A DNA stretch of 64,000 bases. Source: Pelagibacterales bacterium SAG-MED48 (lineage in GTDB: Bacteria > Pseudomonadota > Alphaproteobacteria > Pelagibacterales > Pelagibacteraceae). The translations under genes and the position numbers were made by a program. The stretch covers positions 1-64,000 of the forward strand of contig JACWEP010000002.1 of assembly GCA_014653375.1 (NCBI GenBank), read 5' to 3'. Below, piece by piece: positions 4,666 to 58,164 of this stretch. The notes beneath the pieces are model-generated. The model did no database searches and was not told the DNA's origin. It saw nothing but the letters and a program-made list of their open reading frames with translations. Position 1 is the first letter of the stretch; every line of letters starts with the position of its first letter.

Positions 4666-6160
4666 GAAACTTAATAATCCATCAAGGTCAGAATTAATAA
4701 CAAATTTTGTTAAAACAAATTCTGATTATTATATTAAACAATTTCAGCAAATTGGAAGTAAGCCTACATTTTCTTTTTCATTTAACTTATATGCTGCAAT
4801 TCTTGGACCTATTTGGTTTGGAATGAGAAATATTTGGAATTGGGCGTTAACTTTTTTAATTATTGAAACTTTTTCAGTTGTTCAAATTATAAGAGGTTTG
4901 TTTGGAAATATTACAGCTGATGCTATTCAAAAAATTGAACAAGTACAATCTACTATTGCTTTTAGATATAAACAATTAGAAGCGGCTATAACCAATAATC
5001 CTGACAAAGTTGATGTTTATAAAAGAAACATCAAGTCATTAGAAGATGCTATGCAAGGCTATATTGATGAAGTTAGTAGAATTGAAGCTTCTGCTATTTG
5101 GATTACTATTTTTGGAATTGTTTTATTAATTTCTATTAAAATAGTTCAAGGCATTCTTGCTAACTCAACCTTAGAAAAAAGATATTCTGAATGGTTGTCA
5201 GACAAATCAATAAGTCCTGGTATGCAAACAAAAAATTATATTTTAAGCACAACTTTCACGTCAGTAATTATGTTTTTTTCAGTAGTTCACTATAGTTTTC
5301 CAGGTTTAATTGTAATCATGAATGAATTTCCAACACATCCGGATATCAGATTAACATCTATTGCCTGGGTAGAAACTATATTTAATTATGCGGTCCTAAA
5401 AGGTGATGCTTTGTTTACAGCAATTACAATTGGTATTAGATCTGTTTTAGATTTTTTAGAACTATTATTTGTTAAAACTCCATGGATAGTAATTATAACT
5501 GCAATTGTAACTTTAACTGGCTTATCAGCTGGACCAAGAGCTGCCATATATTCAGCTGGTTTTTTATGTTATATGGGCTTTTTAGGTTTTTGGGTAAAAG
5601 CTATGACTACACTTGCCTTACTGGGTACAGCTGCAATTTTAAGTATCGCTATTGGAATTCCACTTGGAATTTTTTGTGCTAGACGTCAAAGATTTTATTC
5701 AATGATAAGACCGATAATGGATTTTATGCAAACAATGCCAGCCTTTGTATTTATGATCCCAGTAATTGCATTTTTTGGAACGGGAAAAGTTGCAGCAGTA
5801 ATCATCACTATGATATTTGGTGGAACACCTGTTGTCAGATTAACCGTTCTTGGATTAAGAGGAGTTCCAGAAACAATAAGAGAAGCTGCGATAGCTTACG
5901 GTGCAACTAAATGGTATCTACTTAGAAAAGTAGATTTACCTTTAGCAACACCTTCAATATTAGCAGGAGTAAACCAAACAGTAATGTTAAGTTTAGCTAT
6001 GGTTGTTGTTGCATCTTTAATTGGTGCCAAAGGTTTAGGTCAAGATGTTCTAGAGGCATTACAATACGCAAATGTAGGTCAAGGTATTCTTGCAGGTATA
6101 GCCATTTTATTTGTGGCATTAATTTTAGATAGGGTTGTTCAAGGTAAGAAAAGAGTTTAA
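4655..6160 (+). CDS. proW: Glycine betaine-type ABC permease with long N-terminal extension
   Basis: About 501 residues from the ATG at 4655, preceded by AAGG and overlapping proV by 11 bp; an in-frame TTG at 4643 would add four residues. The C-terminal 240 residues are a normal binding-protein-dependent permease domain with the EAA loop (EAAIAYGATKWYLLRKVDLP). The N-terminal half is not part of classical ProW (about 280-350 aa). It has a soluble start, a hydrophobic block around residues 40-85 resembling DUF2628-type membrane segments, a stretch of about 60 charged residues likely to form a coiled coil, then more helices. It is probably co-translated with proV. The role of the extension is unknown. 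Confidence 0.88.
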   Translation: MENKKLNNPSRSELITNFVKTNSDYYIKQFQQIGSKPTFSFSFNLYAAILGPIWFGMRNIWNWALTFLIIETFSVVQIIRGLFGNITADAIQKIEQVQSTIAFRYKQLEAAITNNPDKVDVYKRNIKSLEDAMQGYIDEVSRIEASAIWITIFGIVLLISIKIVQGILANSTLEKRYSEWLSDKSISPGMQTKNYILSTTFTSVIMFFSVVHYSFPGLIVIMNEFPTHPDIRLTSIAWVETIFNYAVLKGDALFTAITIGIRSVLDFLELLFVKTPWIVIITAIVTLTGLSAGPRAAIYSAGFLCYMGFLGFWVKAMTTLALLGTAAILSIAIGIPLGIFCARRQRFYSMIRPIMDFMQTMPAFVFMIPVIAFFGTGKVAAVIITMIFGGTPVVRLTVLGLRGVPETIREAAIAYGATKWYLLRKVDLPLATPSILAGVNQTVMLSLAMVVVASLIGAKGLGQDVLEALQYANVGQGILAGIAILFVALILDRVVQGKKRV

Positions 6161-50013: not shown

Positions 50014-52458
50014 ATGATTAGTAATCTTCCAAAAAATTGTAAAGTTGTAATAATTGGCGGCGGTGTCGTTGGTTGTTCTGTTGCTTACCATTTAGCAAAG
50101 TTTGGATGGAAAGATACAGTTTTACTTGAAAGAGATCAGTTAACTTCAGGTACTACTTGGCATGCTGCTGGTCTTGTTAGTCAATTAGGACCTTCTGCAG
50201 CAGTAACAAAAATTAGAAAATATTCGCTAGATTTATATAAAGAACTTGAAAAAAAAGTGGATCATTCAGCAGGATTAAGATTAAACGGTGCTCTCTCAAT
50301 TGCACAAAATAAGGGCAGGTGGCAAGAACTTCTAAGACAAGCAACCACAGCCCAATTATATGACGTTGACGTTAGAATTTTAGATAAAGATCAAATTAAA
50401 AAAGATTACCCAATTATTAATACTGATGAAATATTAGGTGGTATATTAATGCCAGGGGATGGAGCAGCAGATCCATCTGGTGTTACTTATATGTTAGCTA
50501 AAGCTGCTAAAAAAGAGGGTGCCCAAATATTTGAAAAATCACCAGTTGATGAAATTTTAACGAAAAATGGAAAAGTATCAGGAGTAAAAGTTAATGGTCA
50601 TGTAATAAAGTGTGAGTATATAGTTCTTGCATCTGGAATGTGGTCTAGACAAATTGGAGAAAAAGCTGGTGTTAATATCCCACTTTATCCGGCTGAACAC
50701 TTTTATATCATTACTGAACCTATAGAAAACCTCTCAAAAACTTTACCTGTTATAAGAGATTTTGACAACCGTACCTATTTCAAAGAGGATGCTGGTAAAT
50801 TATTAGTTGGGATTTTTGAAGCAAATTCGATTCCAGCCTTTAAAAATAAAAACAAAGTACCAGAAGATTTTTCATTTGGTGAATTCCCAGAGAACTTTGA
50901 ACATTTTGAACCATATTTAAATGCTGCTGTAAAAAGATTTCCAGTTTTAGAAACTGCTGGAATTAGAAAGTTTTTCTCAGGTCCAGAATCTTTTACACCA
51001 GACACAAATACATTGCTTGGTGAAGTCCCAGAAATAAAAAATTTTTTTGTATGTTGTGGATTAAATAGTATCGGTATTGGAAGTGGTGGGGGCGTAGGTA
51101 AAGTTACTGCAGAGTGGTTAATGACAGGTCATATTAATGAAGATATTTTTAGTTATGACATTAAAAGATTTCAAAAATTTCACTCTGAGCTAGGTTTTAT
51201 AAAAGAAAGAATAACTGAAAGTCTAGGTGATTTATATGGTGTGCATTGGCCTTTTAAACAACATAAGACATCTAGAAATATTAAAAAATTACCTCATCAT
51301 GAAAGTTTAAAAAGTTTTGGTGCATGCTTTGGTGTATCAGGAGGATATGAGAGACCAATGTGGTTTGCATTAGACGGAGAAAAGTCTGAATATGAATACA
51401 GTTATAATTATCAAAATTGGTATCCATCTGCTGAATATGAAACTAACAATACGATTAAAAATGTTGGATTATTTGATCTTACACCTTTTTCTAAATTTGA
51501 AATATTTTCAGAAAAAGCACATGAAGAATTACAAAAAATTTGCACAGCAAATATTAAAGATGAAATTGGAAAATGTACTTACACACAAATGCTAAATAGC
51601 GATGGAGGTATAGAAACTGATTTAACAGTTATTTGTCTTGATAAAAATTATTTTAGAATAGTGAGCTCAGCTGCAACAAGAGAAAGAGATAAGTTTCATA
51701 TAAGGAAGCACCTCTCTAAAGAAATTAAATTAAGAGATGTGACTGATAATTATTGTGTTTTTGGATTATTTGGCCCAAGGAGTAGAGATTTAATAAAAAC
51801 TATTTGTGGTGAAGATTTTGAGAATGATAATTTTAAGTTTGGAACAGGCAAATATATTATAATTGAAAATATTAAAATTTGGACTCAAAGATTATCTTAT
51901 GTTGGTGAATTAGGTTATGAGCTTTATGTAGAATTTAAAGATGCAAAAAAAATTTATGAATTAATTATAAACAAAGGTAAAGATTTTAATCTTTCAAATT
52001 GTGGTATGCACGCAATGGACATTATGAGAATGGAAAGTGGTTATTTGCATTGGGGTCATGATATATCACCTAAAGAAAATCAATATGAGGCAGGTTTAGA
52101 TTTTGCAATTAGCTTTAAAAAAGAAGTCAATTTTTTAGGAAAAGATGTTTTACAAGAAATGAAAGATAAAAAACCAAATAAAAGATTAGCCATGTTGACT
52201 CTTAAAAATAGTAAACCAGGCGAGCCTTTACTTTTACATGATGAACCAATTTATTTAGAAGATAAAATAATAGGCGAAACAACTTCAGGAAACTATTCAT
52301 TTAACTTTAATAAAAATTTATCTTTTGGATATATTGAATCCAATCTTGGAGACAAAGAATTACTTAAAAAAAACTTATATATTGAAGTAGAAAAGAAAAA
52401 ATATCTTGCTGAGATATTACTGAAACCTTTAAAACAAAGTAATTTTAAAAGTATATAA
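50014..52458 (+). CDS. Dimethylglycine/sarcosine dehydrogenase-like FAD and folate enzyme
   Basis: An 814-residue two-domain enzyme. N-terminal DAO domain with VVIIGGGVVGCSVAYHLAKFG and His50 in SGTTWHAAGL, the covalent FAD-attachment site of DMGDH/SARDH; middle FAO_M part (GIGSGGGVGKVTAEWLMTG); C-terminal GcvT-like tetrahydrofolate domain (LFDLTPFSKFEI, VGELGYELYVEF, GMHAMDIMRMESGYLHWGHDI). It would demethylate dimethylglycine or sarcosine, passing the C1 unit to tetrahydrofolate. This fits use of glycine betaine taken up by systems like the one at 2572. Confidence 0.88.
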   Translation: MISNLPKNCKVVIIGGGVVGCSVAYHLAKFGWKDTVLLERDQLTSGTTWHAAGLVSQLGPSAAVTKIRKYSLDLYKELEKKVDHSAGLRLNGALSIAQNKGRWQELLRQATTAQLYDVDVRILDKDQIKKDYPIINTDEILGGILMPGDGAADPSGVTYMLAKAAKKEGAQIFEKSPVDEILTKNGKVSGVKVNGHVIKCEYIVLASGMWSRQIGEKAGVNIPLYPAEHFYIITEPIENLSKTLPVIRDFDNRTYFKEDAGKLLVGIFEANSIPAFKNKNKVPEDFSFGEFPENFEHFEPYLNAAVKRFPVLETAGIRKFFSGPESFTPDTNTLLGEVPEIKNFFVCCGLNSIGIGSGGGVGKVTAEWLMTGHINEDIFSYDIKRFQKFHSELGFIKERITESLGDLYGVHWPFKQHKTSRNIKKLPHHESLKSFGACFGVSGGYERPMWFALDGEKSEYEYSYNYQNWYPSAEYETNNTIKNVGLFDLTPFSKFEIFSEKAHEELQKICTANIKDEIGKCTYTQMLNSDGGIETDLTVICLDKNYFRIVSSAATRERDKFHIRKHLSKEIKLRDVTDNYCVFGLFGPRSRDLIKTICGEDFENDNFKFGTGKYIIIENIKIWTQRLSYVGELGYELYVEFKDAKKIYELIINKGKDFNLSNCGMHAMDIMRMESGYLHWGHDISPKENQYEAGLDFAISFKKEVNFLGKDVLQEMKDKKPNKRLAMLTLKNSKPGEPLLLHDEPIYLEDKIIGETTSGNYSFNFNKNLSFGYIESNLGDKELLKKNLYIEVEKKKYLAEILLKPLKQSNFKSI

Positions 52459-53664: not shown

Positions 53665-54192
53665 TTAGTGTCCTGGAAAATCTATTAAATTTTCAACTTT
53701 ATAATTATTTTTAACCAAATTATCAGATCCACCTAAATCAAATAAGTTAATCACAAATACAAATGCTGATACTTTACTTTTTGAAATTTCGACAAGTTTT
53801 GCAGCAGCTTCAGCAGTTCCTCCGGTTGCTATTAAGTCATCAATAATTAAAACACTATCATGATTGTCTAATGAATCTTTATGAACTTCAATTGTAGCAG
53901 TTCCATATTCTAGCTCAAAGTCAATAGAATGAACATCAGCTGGTAATTTATTTTTTTTTCTAAGCATTATAAATGGTTTTTTTAAAATATAAGAAACAGC
54001 AGAGGCAAATACAAAACCTCTGGATTCTATTGCGGCAATTTTTGTAAAGTTATATTTTTTTGATCTTTCAACTATTTGATTGATAGTTTCTGCAAAAGCA
54101 TTTTCATCTTTAATTAAAGTTGTAATATCTCTGAAAAGAATTCCTTTTTTTGGATAATCTGGTATTGATCTAATATATTTTTTTAAGTCCAT
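53665..54192 (-). CDS. apt: Adenine phosphoribosyltransferase
   Basis: A 175-residue enzyme of standard length. Start MDLKKYIRSIPDYPKKGILFRDIT; the PRPP-binding motif is VLIIDDLIATGGTA; IESRGFVFAS and KKNKLPADV are typical Apt segments. It converts adenine and PRPP to AMP. Adenine is the product of the nucleosidase encoded divergently only 5 bp away, and MTA comes from spermidine synthesis two genes on, so these genes form an adenine/MTA salvage group. Confidence 0.95.
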   Translation of the reverse strand: MDLKKYIRSIPDYPKKGILFRDITTLIKDENAFAETINQIVERSKKYNFTKIAAIESRGFVFASAVSYILKKPFIMLRKKNKLPADVHSIDFELEYGTATIEVHKDSLDNHDSVLIIDDLIATGGTAEAAAKLVEISKSKVSAFVFVINLFDLGGSDNLVKNNYKVENLIDFPGH

Positions 54193-54197
54193 TTTTT

Positions 54198-54722
54198 ATG
54201 AATAAATTATTTGTAGCAGCTTTAAAAGAAGAAACTGTTGGTTTAAATTATTTTTATCATGTAGGGGTAGGAAAAATTAATGCTACTTATAATTTAATCA
54301 AATTAATTCAAGAACATAAACCTTCTGAAATCATTAATTATGGTACAGCAGGTGCAATTAAAAAAGAATTATCAGGTATTGTTGAGTGTACAAAATTTTA
54401 TCAAAGAGATATGGATGCAAGAAGTTTATTAAATCTCAAATTAGGAGAAACTCCTTTTGATCATATTAATGAAATTATAAATTCAGAAGAAGGTTTTTCT
54501 TGTGGTAGCGGGGATAGTTTTGTTAACAAACAAATAGAGATGGATTTAGATTTAGTTGATATGGAAGCATATGCTTTGGCAAAGGTATGTAAATTAGAGG
54601 GCATTAATTTTAGATGTTTTAAATATATCTCAGATAATGCAGATGAAAATGCTACCTCTGATTGGACTGAAAATTGCAAAAAAGGCGCAAAACTCTTCCA
54701 AATTAAAATGAATAATTTTTAG
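54198..54722 (+). CDS. Compact MTA/SAH nucleosidase-like protein
   Basis: A 174-residue member of the PNP/UDP phosphorylase superfamily. Conserved catalytic features of MTA/SAH nucleosidase are kept: acidic pair near the start (AALKEETVG), NYGTAGAI, Glu in DLVDMEAYALAKVC and the catalytic Asp in FKYISDNADENA. At 174 residues it lacks about 50-60 residues of the usual 230, mainly in the N-terminal half between the first strand and the GVGK loop. It is preceded by only 5 bp from the divergent apt start. Role: hydrolysis of MTA or SAH to adenine. Confidence 0.8.
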   Translation: MNKLFVAALKEETVGLNYFYHVGVGKINATYNLIKLIQEHKPSEIINYGTAGAIKKELSGIVECTKFYQRDMDARSLLNLKLGETPFDHINEIINSEEGFSCGSGDSFVNKQIEMDLDLVDMEAYALAKVCKLEGINFRCFKYISDNADENATSDWTENCKKGAKLFQIKMNNF

Positions 54723-54800: not shown

Positions 54801-55841
54801 ATGACTAAAGTTGGAGAACACATAACTCTAGATATCATTGGAACTACTAAAGAATATGATCCTGCATTATTTGAAAAAGTAATTAACGATATTGCAAAAG
54901 CTGCAAAAGTTACAATTCTTAATATTTCAAAATATAAGTTTGAACCACAAGGTTTTACTATTTTAGCCTTATTAGCAGAAAGCCATATTAGTTTTCATAC
55001 ATTTCCAGAAAAAGGAATTATAAGTTTTGACTTTTTTACTTGTGGAAAAATAAGTCCATCAGTTGCCATAGATATAGTTAAAAAAAATTTTCAACATAAA
55101 AGAATTGTTAAAAATGAATTTAATAGAGATACAAAATCTCTTTACCATGACATTTATAGTTCAACAGGATTACAAAAATCATATGTAGTAAATGATGTTC
55201 TTGAGGATTTTAAATCAAAAGTTGGACAACATATTGAAATTTTAGAATTAGAAGAATTTGGAAAATCATTATTTATTGATGGTGAAATACAAGTTGCTGC
55301 AACAGATGAGCATTTATATAGCTCAACATTTGTAGGTGCTGGTCTTAATCTAAATAAAAATAATGAAAGAGTTGCAATTATTGGTGGTGGAGACGGGGGT
55401 GTTGCAAGAGAGTGTATTTCTAAAGATTTCAGTTTTGTAGATTGGTTTGAGTTAGATCCAGAAGTTGTTGATGTCTGTATTAAACATCTTGGAGACATAG
55501 GAAAAAAAGCTACTGAAAAAAATTCTGTAAAATGTGTTTGGGGAGACGCTTTTGAAAGTATCAAATCTGTAGAAGATGATACATACGATCATATTTTTGT
55601 TGATCTTAATGATGATCAGTTTTGCATAGATCTTGCTGCAAAAAATATGGATTCTATGATTAGGATTTTAAAACCAAAAGGTGTGATTACTGCTCAAGTA
55701 GGAAGCCAAGACAAAAAACCTAAACAAGTTGATAGTTGGCTAAACGTATTCAACCATCATTTTGGAAATACTAAATTATCTAGAGTTTATATCCCAAGTT
55801 TTGATTGCTCTTGGAATTTTTCTTCATCAATAAATCATTAA
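54801..55841 (+). CDS. Fusion of S-adenosylmethionine decarboxylase (SpeD) and spermidine-synthase-like (SpeE) domains
   Basis: A 346-residue fusion. Residues 1-115 are a class 1B SpeD proenzyme: self-cleavage Glu60-Ser61 in AESHISFHTFPEKG, His66, and Cys81 in FFTCG, so a pyruvoyl group should form from Ser61. Residues about 125-346 are SpeE-like with GGGDGG (195-200), FELDP and Asp268 in YDHIFVDLNDD. The region that normally reads DE..YHEM..H, lining the amine pocket, is DEHLYSSTFVGAG here, and the usual DSSDP is DLNDD, so amine preference may differ from putrescine. MTA produced would go to the adjacent nucleosidase and Apt. Confidence 0.88.
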   Translation: MTKVGEHITLDIIGTTKEYDPALFEKVINDIAKAAKVTILNISKYKFEPQGFTILALLAESHISFHTFPEKGIISFDFFTCGKISPSVAIDIVKKNFQHKRIVKNEFNRDTKSLYHDIYSSTGLQKSYVVNDVLEDFKSKVGQHIEILELEEFGKSLFIDGEIQVAATDEHLYSSTFVGAGLNLNKNNERVAIIGGGDGGVARECISKDFSFVDWFELDPEVVDVCIKHLGDIGKKATEKNSVKCVWGDAFESIKSVEDDTYDHIFVDLNDDQFCIDLAAKNMDSMIRILKPKGVITAQVGSQDKKPKQVDSWLNVFNHHFGNTKLSRVYIPSFDCSWNFSSSINH

Positions 55842-55901: not shown

Positions 55902-56753
55902 ATGAATATATTTAAAAAAACTATTTTAACAGTTCTTGCTTCTTTATTAGTCATTGGAAATGTTTACGCTGACAAAATAAAGATTGGAACTGAGGGCGCT
56001 TATCCTCCATGGAATTCAAAAGATGCTTCAGGTAATCTTATTGGTTTTGAGGTTGAGTTAGCAAAAGAGCTTTGTGCAATCATGAAAGCTGAGTGCACTA
56101 TCGTTGAACAAGATTGGGATGGAATGATTCCAGCTTTGTTAATGAGAAAATTTGATGCAATCATGGCTGGAATGTCAATTACAGCTGAAAGACAAAAAAC
56201 TATTACTTTTTCTCAAGGTTATGCTGACGAAGTAGCATCACTTGCGGTAATGAAAGGTTCAAGTTTAGAGGGAATGGACACACCAGAAGGTGTTAACTTA
56301 ACTCTAGGTGGATCTGCAGTTAAAAAAGCTCTTAAAACTATAACAGGAGCACTTGCAGGAAAAACTGTTTGTACTCAAACAGGAACTATTCACCAAAACT
56401 TCTTAGAATCTGGTGATGTTGGAAGTGTGAATGTTAGAACTTATAAAACACAAGATGAAGTTAACTTAGATTTAACATCTGGAAGATGTGATGTTGCATT
56501 AGCTGCAGCAGTAGCATTTACGGACTATGCCGACAAATCAGGTAAACCAGTTACATTGGTTGGACCAACTTTTTCAGGTGGTGCATTTGGTAATGGTGTT
56601 GGTGTTGGTATTAGACAAGGTGGAGATGATGCTATCGGTAAAAGAGACGCTAAACTTCTAAAAGACTTCAACAAAGCAATTGATAAAGCTAGAAAAAAAG
56701 GAATTATTAGCAAACTTGCTATTAAACACTTTGGTTTCGACGCTTCTATGTAA
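55902..56753 (+). CDS. Polar amino acid ABC transporter substrate-binding protein
   Basis: A 283-residue family 3 solute-binding protein. Signal peptide to about residue 23 (GNVYA before DKIKIG); GTEGAYPPWNSKDASGNLIGFEVELAKELC (read in parts), DWDGMIPALLMRKFDAIMAGMSIT and the C-terminal GIISKLAIKHFGFDASM are close to the LAO/octopine/histidine (OccT/HisJ) branch, so basic amino acids or opine-like ligands are likely. Good GGAGA ribosome site. First of three transport genes. Confidence 0.9.
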   Translation: MNIFKKTILTVLASLLVIGNVYADKIKIGTEGAYPPWNSKDASGNLIGFEVELAKELCAIMKAECTIVEQDWDGMIPALLMRKFDAIMAGMSITAERQKTITFSQGYADEVASLAVMKGSSLEGMDTPEGVNLTLGGSAVKKALKTITGALAGKTVCTQTGTIHQNFLESGDVGSVNVRTYKTQDEVNLDLTSGRCDVALAAAVAFTDYADKSGKPVTLVGPTFSGGAFGNGVGVGIRQGGDDAIGKRDAKLLKDFNKAIDKARKKGIISKLAIKHFGFDASM

Positions 56754-56766
56754 TTAATTTCAGATT

Positions 56767-56791
56767 TGGCGACTATAATATATAGTCGCCA
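56767..56791 (+). terminator. Strong hairpin between the binding-protein and permease genes
   Basis: Perfect 11-bp arms TGGCGACTATA (56767-56777) and TATAGTCGCCA (56781-56791) with a 3-base loop, 13 bp after the stop and 6 bp before the permease ATG at 56798. No T-tract follows. It occupies the place of the permease ribosome site and should reduce its expression relative to the binding protein. Confidence 0.78.
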
Positions 56792-56797
56792 GTCTAT

Positions 56798-57490
56798 ATG
56801 GAACTTCTCGCATTTGGAAAAACTGGTTGGGGTGATGAGTTGTTTTATGCAACCCTAATGACTATTGCTGTCTCTGTAACAGCTATGTTTATTGGATTTT
56901 TTTTTGCTCTAATTTTTACTCCTCTAAAGTTATCAAAGTATAAATCTCTAAATTTAATTGGAAATGTTTACACAACAGTTATTCGTGGCGTTCCTGAACT
57001 TTTAGTAATTTACCTTTTATTCTTTGGTGGAAGTGGTGCAATAATGTATGTGGCGTCGATCTTTGGCTATTTTGAATATATAGAGATAAATGCTTTTATA
57101 ACTGGATCCATGGCAATCGGAATAATTTCAGGCGCTTATTCAACAGAAGTGTTCCGTGGAGCAATTCAATCAATTGATAAAGGCCAGTTTGAAGCTGCTA
57201 AAGTTTTAGGATTAAGTAAATTTGTACAGTTTTACAAAATAATATTGCCTCAAATGTTAAGACTTTCTATTCCAAATCTAAGTAATGTTTGGCAAATTAC
57301 TTTAAAAGACACATCATTAATTTCAGTTACTGGTTTAATAGAGATTATGAGACAATCTTACATTGCCGCAGGATCTACTAGAGACCCATTATTCTTTTAC
57401 TCATTTGCTGCAGTTTTATATTTATTGCTTACTTATTTAAGTATGAAGTTAATCAATAGATTAGAAGCTAAATATAGCAGGGGGTATTAA
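56798..57490 (+). CDS. Polar amino acid ABC transporter permease (HisQ/OccQ type)
   Basis: A 230-residue inner-membrane protein with about five helices and the HisMQ-family sequence FYATLMTIAVSVTAMFIGF, VIRGVPELLVIYLLFFGGSG, EAAKVLGLSKFVQFYKIILPQ (EAA loop). Pairs with the next gene, whose start overlaps its stop by 1 bp. No clear ribosome site because the hairpin lies directly upstream. Confidence 0.9.
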   Translation: MELLAFGKTGWGDELFYATLMTIAVSVTAMFIGFFFALIFTPLKLSKYKSLNLIGNVYTTVIRGVPELLVIYLLFFGGSGAIMYVASIFGYFEYIEINAFITGSMAIGIISGAYSTEVFRGAIQSIDKGQFEAAKVLGLSKFVQFYKIILPQMLRLSIPNLSNVWQITLKDTSLISVTGLIEIMRQSYIAAGSTRDPLFFYSFAAVLYLLLTYLSMKLINRLEAKYSRGY

Positions 57491-58164
57491 TGGATTTTGA
57501 TTTAATGTTCACTAGTTTTCCAAAATTACTAAGTGCTAGTGTAATTACACTAAAACTTTTAAGTGTTTCTTTAATATTAGGGATGTTTCTCGGGTTATTT
57601 TTTGCAATTCTAAGAATGAATAAGAATATTTTTATTAATAAATTTGCTTATGGGTATTCTTATGTATTTAGAGGAACTCCACTTTTAGTTCAAATTTTTA
57701 TTATCTATTTTGGTTTAGGACAGATCGAGTATTTAAGATCAACATTTCTTTGGGTTATTTTAAAAGAACCTTATTGGTGTGCAATTATAGCTTTTGCATT
57801 AAACACAGGCGCTTATACATCTGAGATATTAAGATCAGCTTTTCAAACTATTAAACCTGGTATTATTGAGGCTGGTAAAAGTTTAGGAATTTCAAATAAA
57901 ATTATCTTTTATAAAATACAAATACCAATTGCTATTAGACAATCTTTGCCTGCTTATGGAAATGAAATAATTCTAATGATGAAGGGAACTTCATTGGCTA
58001 GTACAGTAACTTTGATGGATTTAACTGGAGTTGCTAAATATATTATTTCAACAACATTTAAACCAATAGAAGTATTTATTGTTGCAGGTGGTATTTATTT
58101 ATTTATGACATTTTTAATTCATAATTTAATTAAATACTTAGAAAAAAAATATAGTTTTCAATAA
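57490..58164 (+). CDS. Polar amino acid ABC transporter permease (HisM/OccM type)
   Basis: A 224-residue permease, partner of the preceding gene: VITLKLLSVSLILGMFLGL, YVFRGTPLLVQIFIIYFGLGQ, EAGKSLGISNKIIFYKIQIPIA (EAA loop), LMMKGTSLASTVTLMDLTG. The expected HisP/OccP ATPase gene does not follow; an oxygenase gene starts 8 bp later. The ATPase must come from elsewhere in the genome. Confidence 0.9.
   Translation: MDFDLMFTSFPKLLSASVITLKLLSVSLILGMFLGLFFAILRMNKNIFINKFAYGYSYVFRGTPLLVQIFIIYFGLGQIEYLRSTFLWVILKEPYWCAIIAFALNTGAYTSEILRSAFQTIKPGIIEAGKSLGISNKIIFYKIQIPIAIRQSLPAYGNEIILMMKGTSLASTVTLMDLTGVAKYIISTTFKPIEVFIVAGGIYLFMTFLIHNLIKYLEKKYSFQ

Follow-up and report, generated by a model that had tools for sequence, protein, structure and literature searches.

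A SAR11 AdoMet decarboxylase-aminopropyltransferase fusion with a diverged, clade-conserved SpeE pocket

The speDE locus and the SpeD half

We analyzed a 64,000-nucleotide stretch of contig JACWEP010000002.1 from Pelagibacterales bacterium SAG-MED48, referred to here as the window. The genome it belongs to is a 1.07 Mb assembly estimated to be 75.6% complete. The features that surround and make up the gene under study are as follows.

53665..54192, minus strand: adenine phosphoribosyltransferase gene (apt); TIGR01090 196.5 bits, cut-off 185.85
54198..54722, plus strand: short MTA/SAH-nucleosidase-like protein, 174 aa; PF01048 51.3 bits, cut-off 25.1
54801..55841, plus strand: speD-speE fusion (AdoMet decarboxylase-aminopropyltransferase), 346 aa, ATG start; from the open reading frame, Pfam, NCBIfam, and alignment
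54819..55127, plus strand: SpeD (class 1b AdoMetDC) domain with Ser61, His66, and Cys81; from Pfam, NCBIfam, and 138/138 aligned rows
55158..55820, plus strand: SpeE domain, aa 120-340, C-terminal tail absent; from Pfam and alignment
Within the SpeE domain: YSST (aa 173-176), GGGDGG (aa 195-200), DLNDD (aa 268-272), and IPSFDCSW (aa 331-338)
55902..58164, plus strand: ABC transporter genes, comprising a substrate-binding protein (55902-56753) and two permease-like open reading frames assigned by eye

A sequence-only reading of the window had proposed a SpeD-SpeE fusion at 54801-55841. Pfam bears this out, with AdoMet_dc (residues 7-109, 96.3 bits against a cut-off of 25), Spermine_synt_N (residues 120-165), and Spermine_synth (residues 170-340, 90.1 bits against 22.9) all found in one open reading frame. 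The SpeD half passes the NCBIfam equivalog TIGR03330 at 95.6 bits (cut-off 75.65), and the fusion is the sole AdoMet_dc match in its 75.6% complete genome. Ser61, His66, and Cys81, which the same reading had singled out as kept, are invariant in all 138 aligned rows. We take these to be the catalytic Ser/His/Cys triad, with Ser61 as the pyruvoyl-forming residue.

The SpeE half falls below the SpeE equivalog cut-offs, at 100.3 bits against 249.55 for TIGR00417 and 123.2 against 260 for NF002010. The fusion at locus L135, presumed to be the copy of Ca. Pelagibacter strain HTCC1062, scores likewise low (93.5 and 120.4, respectively), so the low score of the window copy is no argument against activity.

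Conservation of the unusual SpeE pocket

We aligned the window protein with those of 137 loci, giving 138 rows with 125 distinct sequences; two of the loci (L001 and L082) are the window itself. At least 576 relatives were found, and the top 80 of these supply 80 of the rows, which weights the alignment toward close relatives; these 80 come from Pelagibacteraceae, Pelagibacterales, or Candidatus Pelagibacter genomes and are 89-96% identical over the protein, which marks the window as SAR11. A further 37 rows (L001 and L082-L117) came from a genome search, and 20 (L118-L137) were added to broaden the sample, with four other genera contributing ten of these.

The substitutions first noticed in the window, YSS for YHE and DLNDD for DSSDP beside a retained GGGDGG, recur throughout. 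Tyr173, Ser174, GGGDGG at 195-200, and Asp268, Leu269, Asn270, and Asp271 are present in every row, as are Gln299, Pro332, Ser333, Phe334, Asp335, Cys336, and Trp338. Ser175 is found in 135/138 rows (the exceptions are two Tyr and one Gly) and Asp272 in 137/138. Given this conservation across 138 rows, the pocket substitutions are a signature of the SAR11 clade, due neither to chance nor to sequencing error. DLNDD retains both Asp residues of the D-x-x-D motif (Asp268 and Asp271) in all rows, a pair that is presumably catalytic.

Two further changes had gone unremarked in the sequence-only reading. The region that reads IPTYPSG in 1iy9 aligns with IPSFDCS in the window SpeE, and the protein lacks the C-terminal tail. 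Counting from the first residue of IPSF, it runs for 16 residues, compared with 62-72 in five alphaproteobacterial SpeE proteins with complete C-termini (L141, L142, L143, L153, and L155); the SpeE part is thus 46-56 residues shorter. Tail lengths were taken from these five and the SAR11 rows. Asp335, found in every SAR11 row, is a possible binding residue for an acceptor amino group.

The divergence is real, then, and it does not lie wholly in the amine pocket, where the earlier reading had put it. By a count on the 6bq2 segment, the YHE histidine is equivalent to His85 in the Medicago thermospermine synthase, a residue that PMC11107197 places among those binding the donor, decarboxylated AdoMet (dcAdoMet), and calls uninformative. 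Since this position is assigned to donor binding, not all of the change is on the amine side. An AlphaFold2 model built with the window protein and 37 relatives (89-96% identical) had a mean pLDDT of 45.7, with residues 109-314 and 320-346 below 50.

Comparison with other aminopropyltransferases

Motif positions were read from the aligned columns of a 23-row alignment. A regular-expression scan misplaces the Y motif in four sequences (7xif, L141, L142, and L155), the D motif in two (L123 and L143), and the last motif in a further two (L144 and L154), and it finds no last motif in 6bq2 or 6o64. Thirteen non-SAR11 rows have YHE or YQE at 173-175. Positions 268-272 read D-S-[ST]-[DE]-P in 1iy9, 2pwp, 6o64, L141, L142, L143, L153, and L155; D-L-[TA]-D-P in 7xif, 3anx, and the thermospermine synthase 6bq2; and DLPDE in L144 and L154.

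We take 1iy9 to be the canonical spermidine synthase of Bacillus subtilis. The window SpeE shares its fold family, GGGDGG, and the D-x-x-D/E spacing, but has YSS, DLNDD, and IPSFDCS where 1iy9 has YHE, DSTEP, and IPTYPSG, and the 1iy9 chain extends 44 residues past the matched region. With 6bq2, 3anx, and 7xif, presumably thermospermine-type or broad aminopropyltransferases, the window protein has D-L-x-D for D-S-x-D in common, and 7xif also shares the IPSF region. However, unlike these three, it has Asp rather than Glu at motif 2 and lacks YHE.

The Glu of thermospermine synthases at motif 2 (GGGEG) is absent from the SAR11 fusions, as all 138 rows read GGGDGG; two thermospermine synthases with Asp at this position are named as exceptions in PMC11107197. 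The residues of the bacterial spermine synthase pattern are all present (Asp198 in motif 2, Gly200, and Glu217 in motif 3), a rule that comes from PMC11107197 together with its warning of phylogenetic skew.

In trees, the SAR11 SpeE sequences cluster together (100/100), set apart by a very long branch of 2.1-2.9 changes per column. The 23-row tree places them on the spermidine synthase side (81/87, not starred). A 21-row tree, from which L144 and L154 were left out, places them on one side with the three thermospermine-synthase-type rows (94/97, not starred). Constraining SAR11 to group with 7xif or with 1iy9 was rejected in neither case (p-AU 0.25 and 0.32). As the two trees lean opposite ways, we regard the D-L-x-D likeness to thermospermine-type enzymes as a resemblance only.

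Fusions of this general kind are found elsewhere. Bacterial AdoMetDC-spermine synthase fusions and human spermine synthase also carry a class 1b AdoMetDC, or its remnant, ahead of a spermine-making aminopropyltransferase; in animals, this N-terminal domain no longer functions as an AdoMetDC (PMC12803844). Human spermine synthase (3c6k) matches the window protein only over residues 124-231. In other alphaproteobacteria, L141, L142, and L143 are SpeD-SpeE fusions in a single open reading frame with YHE, DSTDP, and a full tail; L154 is a SpeD-SpeE fusion with YHEG, IGSSEG, and DLPDE, and L144 is a partial relative of it. Because L141-L143 are fused yet have canonical pockets, and L154 has a different one, fusion and pocket change are separable.

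Distribution and origin

The fusion was found in 47 of 61 genomes in a sample of the same genus (the window's own included), and in all ten of those at least 90% complete. Across the order, 130/197 genomes match at the E threshold, or 128 without two marginal cases (G086 and G135, E of about 2-4e-4). A few of the 128 matches are partial, and all lie within genus codes g1, g2, g4, g5, and g6 of one family. Counting near-complete genomes of the order, 122/149 carry the fusion. Four genomes have a second match at another position, each of marginal strength (E 6e-5 to 8e-4).

Among the matchless genomes listed in the order search are 12 same-genus genomes at least 90% complete; we infer no loss there, as these assemblies are only 90-96% complete. 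The g3 genomes G069 and G113 (99% and 96% complete) also appear among those listed without a match, and 47 further matchless genomes of the order fall outside the listing. Other SpeD-SpeE fusions were found among 289 genomes of the class. In one same-genus genome (G060:C9:12353-13391), the fusion is broken into two matches that overlap but lie in different frames, the first of them interrupted by a TAA, probably through a frameshift or an assembly error.

We also considered a mobile origin. A peptide-pattern scan of viral contigs, sensitive only to close relatives, gave no confirmed case. A search of 50,697 phage records gave 134 matches, none covering more than 80% of the query; the 20 phage matches listed have coverage of at most 42% and SpeD-type annotation. 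Among 72,556 plasmid records there are 16 matches, three of which span 80% or more of the query, with identities below 30%. A chromosomal SAR11 origin of the fusion stands.

Probable amine supply

The sequence-only reading had suggested looking for ornithine or arginine decarboxylase genes, and a putative arginine decarboxylase gene lies beside an agmatinase gene elsewhere in the same genome.

L165:6266-9371 on contig C34, one strand: 394-aa decarboxylase, deoxyhypusine-synthase homologue, and agmatinase in a row

The decarboxylase has an alanine-racemase fold and matches Orn_Arg_deC_N at 129.4 bits (cut-off 23.4). It passes no NCBIfam cut-off, the best model being diaminopimelate decarboxylase at 130.1 against 297.9. 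Its neighbors do pass theirs, with the deoxyhypusine-synthase homologue at 583.8 bits for NF002699 (cut-off 500) and the agmatinase at 208.3 bits for TIGR01230 (cut-off 174.3). Two Orn_Arg_deC_N members occur in 26 of 31 other genomes searched and one in the remaining five; lysA probably accounts for one of the members.

A Pelagibacter "ornithine decarboxylase" of 394 aa was shown to use arginine but neither ornithine nor lysine, and its gene clusters with an arginase/agmatinase homologue (PMC9992855). Based on the same length and gene cluster, the C34 decarboxylase is likely the counterpart of that enzyme, with arginine as its predicted substrate. Putrescine would then be made from arginine by way of agmatine, through the decarboxylase and the agmatinase. 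With agmatine and then putrescine as likely inputs, nothing requires a substrate-shifted SpeD.

The C34 cluster also suggests that, in SAR11, two agmatines may be joined to give caldomycin as an intermediate toward homospermidine. This pathway is described in PMC10981699, the available text of which does not mention Pelagibacter or SAR11.

Function of the fused enzyme

Two AdoMetDC-APT fusions with the same domain order as the window protein, from Ca. Pelagibacter ubique HTCC1062 (WP_011282223) and Ca. Pelagibacter sp. HTCC7211 (WP_008544956), have been expressed in E. coli (PMC11107197). They gave spermidine in a speD deletion, indicating that the decarboxylase half works, and spermine and thermospermine in a speE deletion. 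Similar amounts of the two tetraamines were seen in a speG deletion, with HTCC1062 peak areas of 4.18 x 10^7 for thermospermine and 8.07 x 10^7 for spermine, and norspermidine was formed from 1,3-diaminopropane (PMC11107197). SAR11 SpeE is also described as a fusion with broad substrate range in PMC8437039, citing Green et al. 2011.

L135, presumed to be the HTCC1062 copy, is 346 aa long and 84% identical to the window protein. About 16% of residues differ, none of them in the listed pocket motifs, as the two are identical at YSST, GGGDGG, DLNDDQ, AQVGSQ, and IPSFDCSW. Therefore, the window enzyme is expected to be a spermidine/spermine/thermospermine synthase. Judged by its sequence, the gene is very probably the SAR11 AdoMetDC-aminopropyltransferase fusion, making all three polyamines with its own donor supply.

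In the mechanism we propose, self-cleavage of the N-terminal half at Ser61 would generate a pyruvoyl group, and this half would decarboxylate S-adenosylmethionine. The self-processing predicted by the sequence-only reading fits both the TIGR03330 match and the restoration of spermidine by orthologous fusions in the E. coli speD deletion. The C-terminal half would then transfer an aminopropyl group onto putrescine to give spermidine, and another onto either end of spermidine to give spermine and thermospermine, with methylthioadenosine as the by-product. The relaxed acceptor range is probably due to the altered pocket, which has no tail but keeps the GGGDGG donor site and the D-x-x-D Asp pair.

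The idea that the fused enzyme could make an unusual polyamine agrees with what the orthologues produce, namely spermine and thermospermine, and norspermidine from 1,3-diaminopropane (PMC11107197), and the window enzyme would be expected to do the same. The earlier reading had set ordinary conversion of putrescine to spermidine against this; the orthologues do have that activity, and the unusual products in addition. The enzyme is thus already known from close orthologues, and the observation is both real and explained. The oddity is settled in that the diverged pocket is a fixed trait of sampled SAR11, in an enzyme whose orthologues have shown activity.

Three other explanations were weighed. 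The sequence-only reading had raised the possibility of a shift to amino acid decarboxylation; in its specific form, the SpeD half would decarboxylate arginine or ornithine, like the SpeD homologues of pelagiphages, so that the fused enzyme would start from agmatine or ornithine-derived putrescine. Shifts of this kind do occur, both in phages and in other bacteria (PMC10407285, PMC9992855). We nevertheless consider this very improbable here, as the window SpeD passes the AdoMetDC equivalog, the genome has no second AdoMet_dc match at 75.6% completeness, a separate decarboxylase-agmatinase cluster is present, and the orthologues restore spermidine to the speD deletion (PMC11107197). The notion of a different starting amine fared no better. 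The Thermus enzyme is given as the sole thermospermine synthase making N1-aminopropylagmatine, in a sentence that does not name Pelagibacter, and no report of this product from the Pelagibacter fusions was found in the available text of PMC11107197. It is similarly hard to believe that the SpeE half is degenerate and inactive and that SpeD alone matters. The conserved Glu of YHE and the C-terminal tail are gone and the branch is very long, but GGGDGG and the D-x-x-D residues are invariant in 138 rows, and the orthologues make tetraamines in the speE deletion (PMC11107197).

Unlikely, though less so, is that in vivo the enzyme runs mainly in reverse and removes aminopropyl groups from spermidine and norspermidine taken up by the cell, as has been proposed for SAR11 SpeE (PMC8437039). 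In that study, putrescine rose in HTCC7211 fed spermidine, diaminopropane rose with norspermidine, and a spermidine dehydrogenase gene was not found; an unusual pocket without a tail would suit such a role. However, the HTCC1062 result was not clear and SpeE elsewhere is known as not bi-directional (PMC8437039), and biosynthetic activity of the orthologues was shown in E. coli (PMC11107197). Furthermore, the adjacent genes for removing methylthioadenosine would be expected to deplete the co-substrate of the reverse reaction.

Neighboring genes and methylthioadenosine disposal

Aminopropyl transfer releases methylthioadenosine (MTA). In the window, MTA is likely removed by the adjacent nucleosidase and the freed adenine salvaged by apt. 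The best NCBIfam model for the 174-aa nucleosidase is PRK05634, at 104.5 bits and under the cut-off of 129. A short nucleosidase lies within 1.5 kb upstream of speDE in 12/99 loci.

We counted disposal genes in the 89 loci whose upstream flank is 3.5 kb or longer, skipping 48 short-flank loci and dropping two window copies; these loci were pooled from several searches, and one organism may occur twice. At least one of mtnP, mtnA, and a class II aldolase gene lies upstream of speDE in 76/89 loci, and the set of three is complete together with apt in 51. The window type, apt with a short nucleosidase, accounts for 12/89, and one locus (L018) has none of the five genes sought. Both modules were found together at none of the 89 loci. 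In the L136 example (L136:2760-5901), the genes overlap or abut, as mtnA ends at 5272, the aldolase gene spans 5269-5901, and speDE starts at 5905. MtnP and MtnA pass curated cut-offs, and the best model for the aldolase scores 215.4, under its 264. The placement of mtnA beside a class II aldolase gene recalls the E. coli DHAP shunt (mtnK-mtnA-ald2; PMC12632272).

At the level of whole genomes, MtnA is present in 9 of 18 genomes searched (G061, G063, G065, G067, G073, G075, G077, G080, and G084). It had no match in the nucleosidase-module genomes G000, G012, G071, G213, and G091, with G000 carrying little weight at 75.6% completeness, or in G069, G113, G062, and G064. A PF01048 search of 14 genomes gave one long, MtnP-type match in each of the nine MtnA-bearing genomes and a short nucleosidase match in none of them (0/9); short matches occurred in G012, G071, G213, and G069, and G062 had no match. 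A limited literature search found no published description of the two-module arrangement in SAR11/Pelagibacter. Because the by-product of speDE is linked to either of two modules for its disposal, cultured SAR11 strains offer a way to test whether they differ in how much sulfur and carbon they lose.

A broader scenario, which we put forward as doubtful, joins these observations. The minimal, tail-less YSS/DLNDD/PSFDC aminopropyltransferase would be a broad, possibly reversible exchanger of aminopropyl groups serving both synthesis and breakdown of many polyamines, and SAR11 lineages would then have split into two metabolic types by swapping the MTA-disposal module, between a carbon-recovering phosphorylase-isomerase-aldolase set and a single nucleosidase that recovers no carbon.

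Two other features of the neighborhood were observed. The substrate-binding protein downstream matches SBP_bac_3 in Pfam and reaches 224 bits for TIGR01096, under the cut-off of 256, and a substrate-binding gene lies within 500 bp downstream of speDE in 126/137 loci. Amino-acid-type ABC genes directly 3' of speDE hint at a link such as arginine supply. Further upstream, 50014-52458 encodes an 814-aa FAD oxidoreductase with a GcvT-type folate domain (Pfam DAO, FAO_M, GCV_T, and GCV_T_C), which we take to be of the dimethylglycine/sarcosine dehydrogenase kind.
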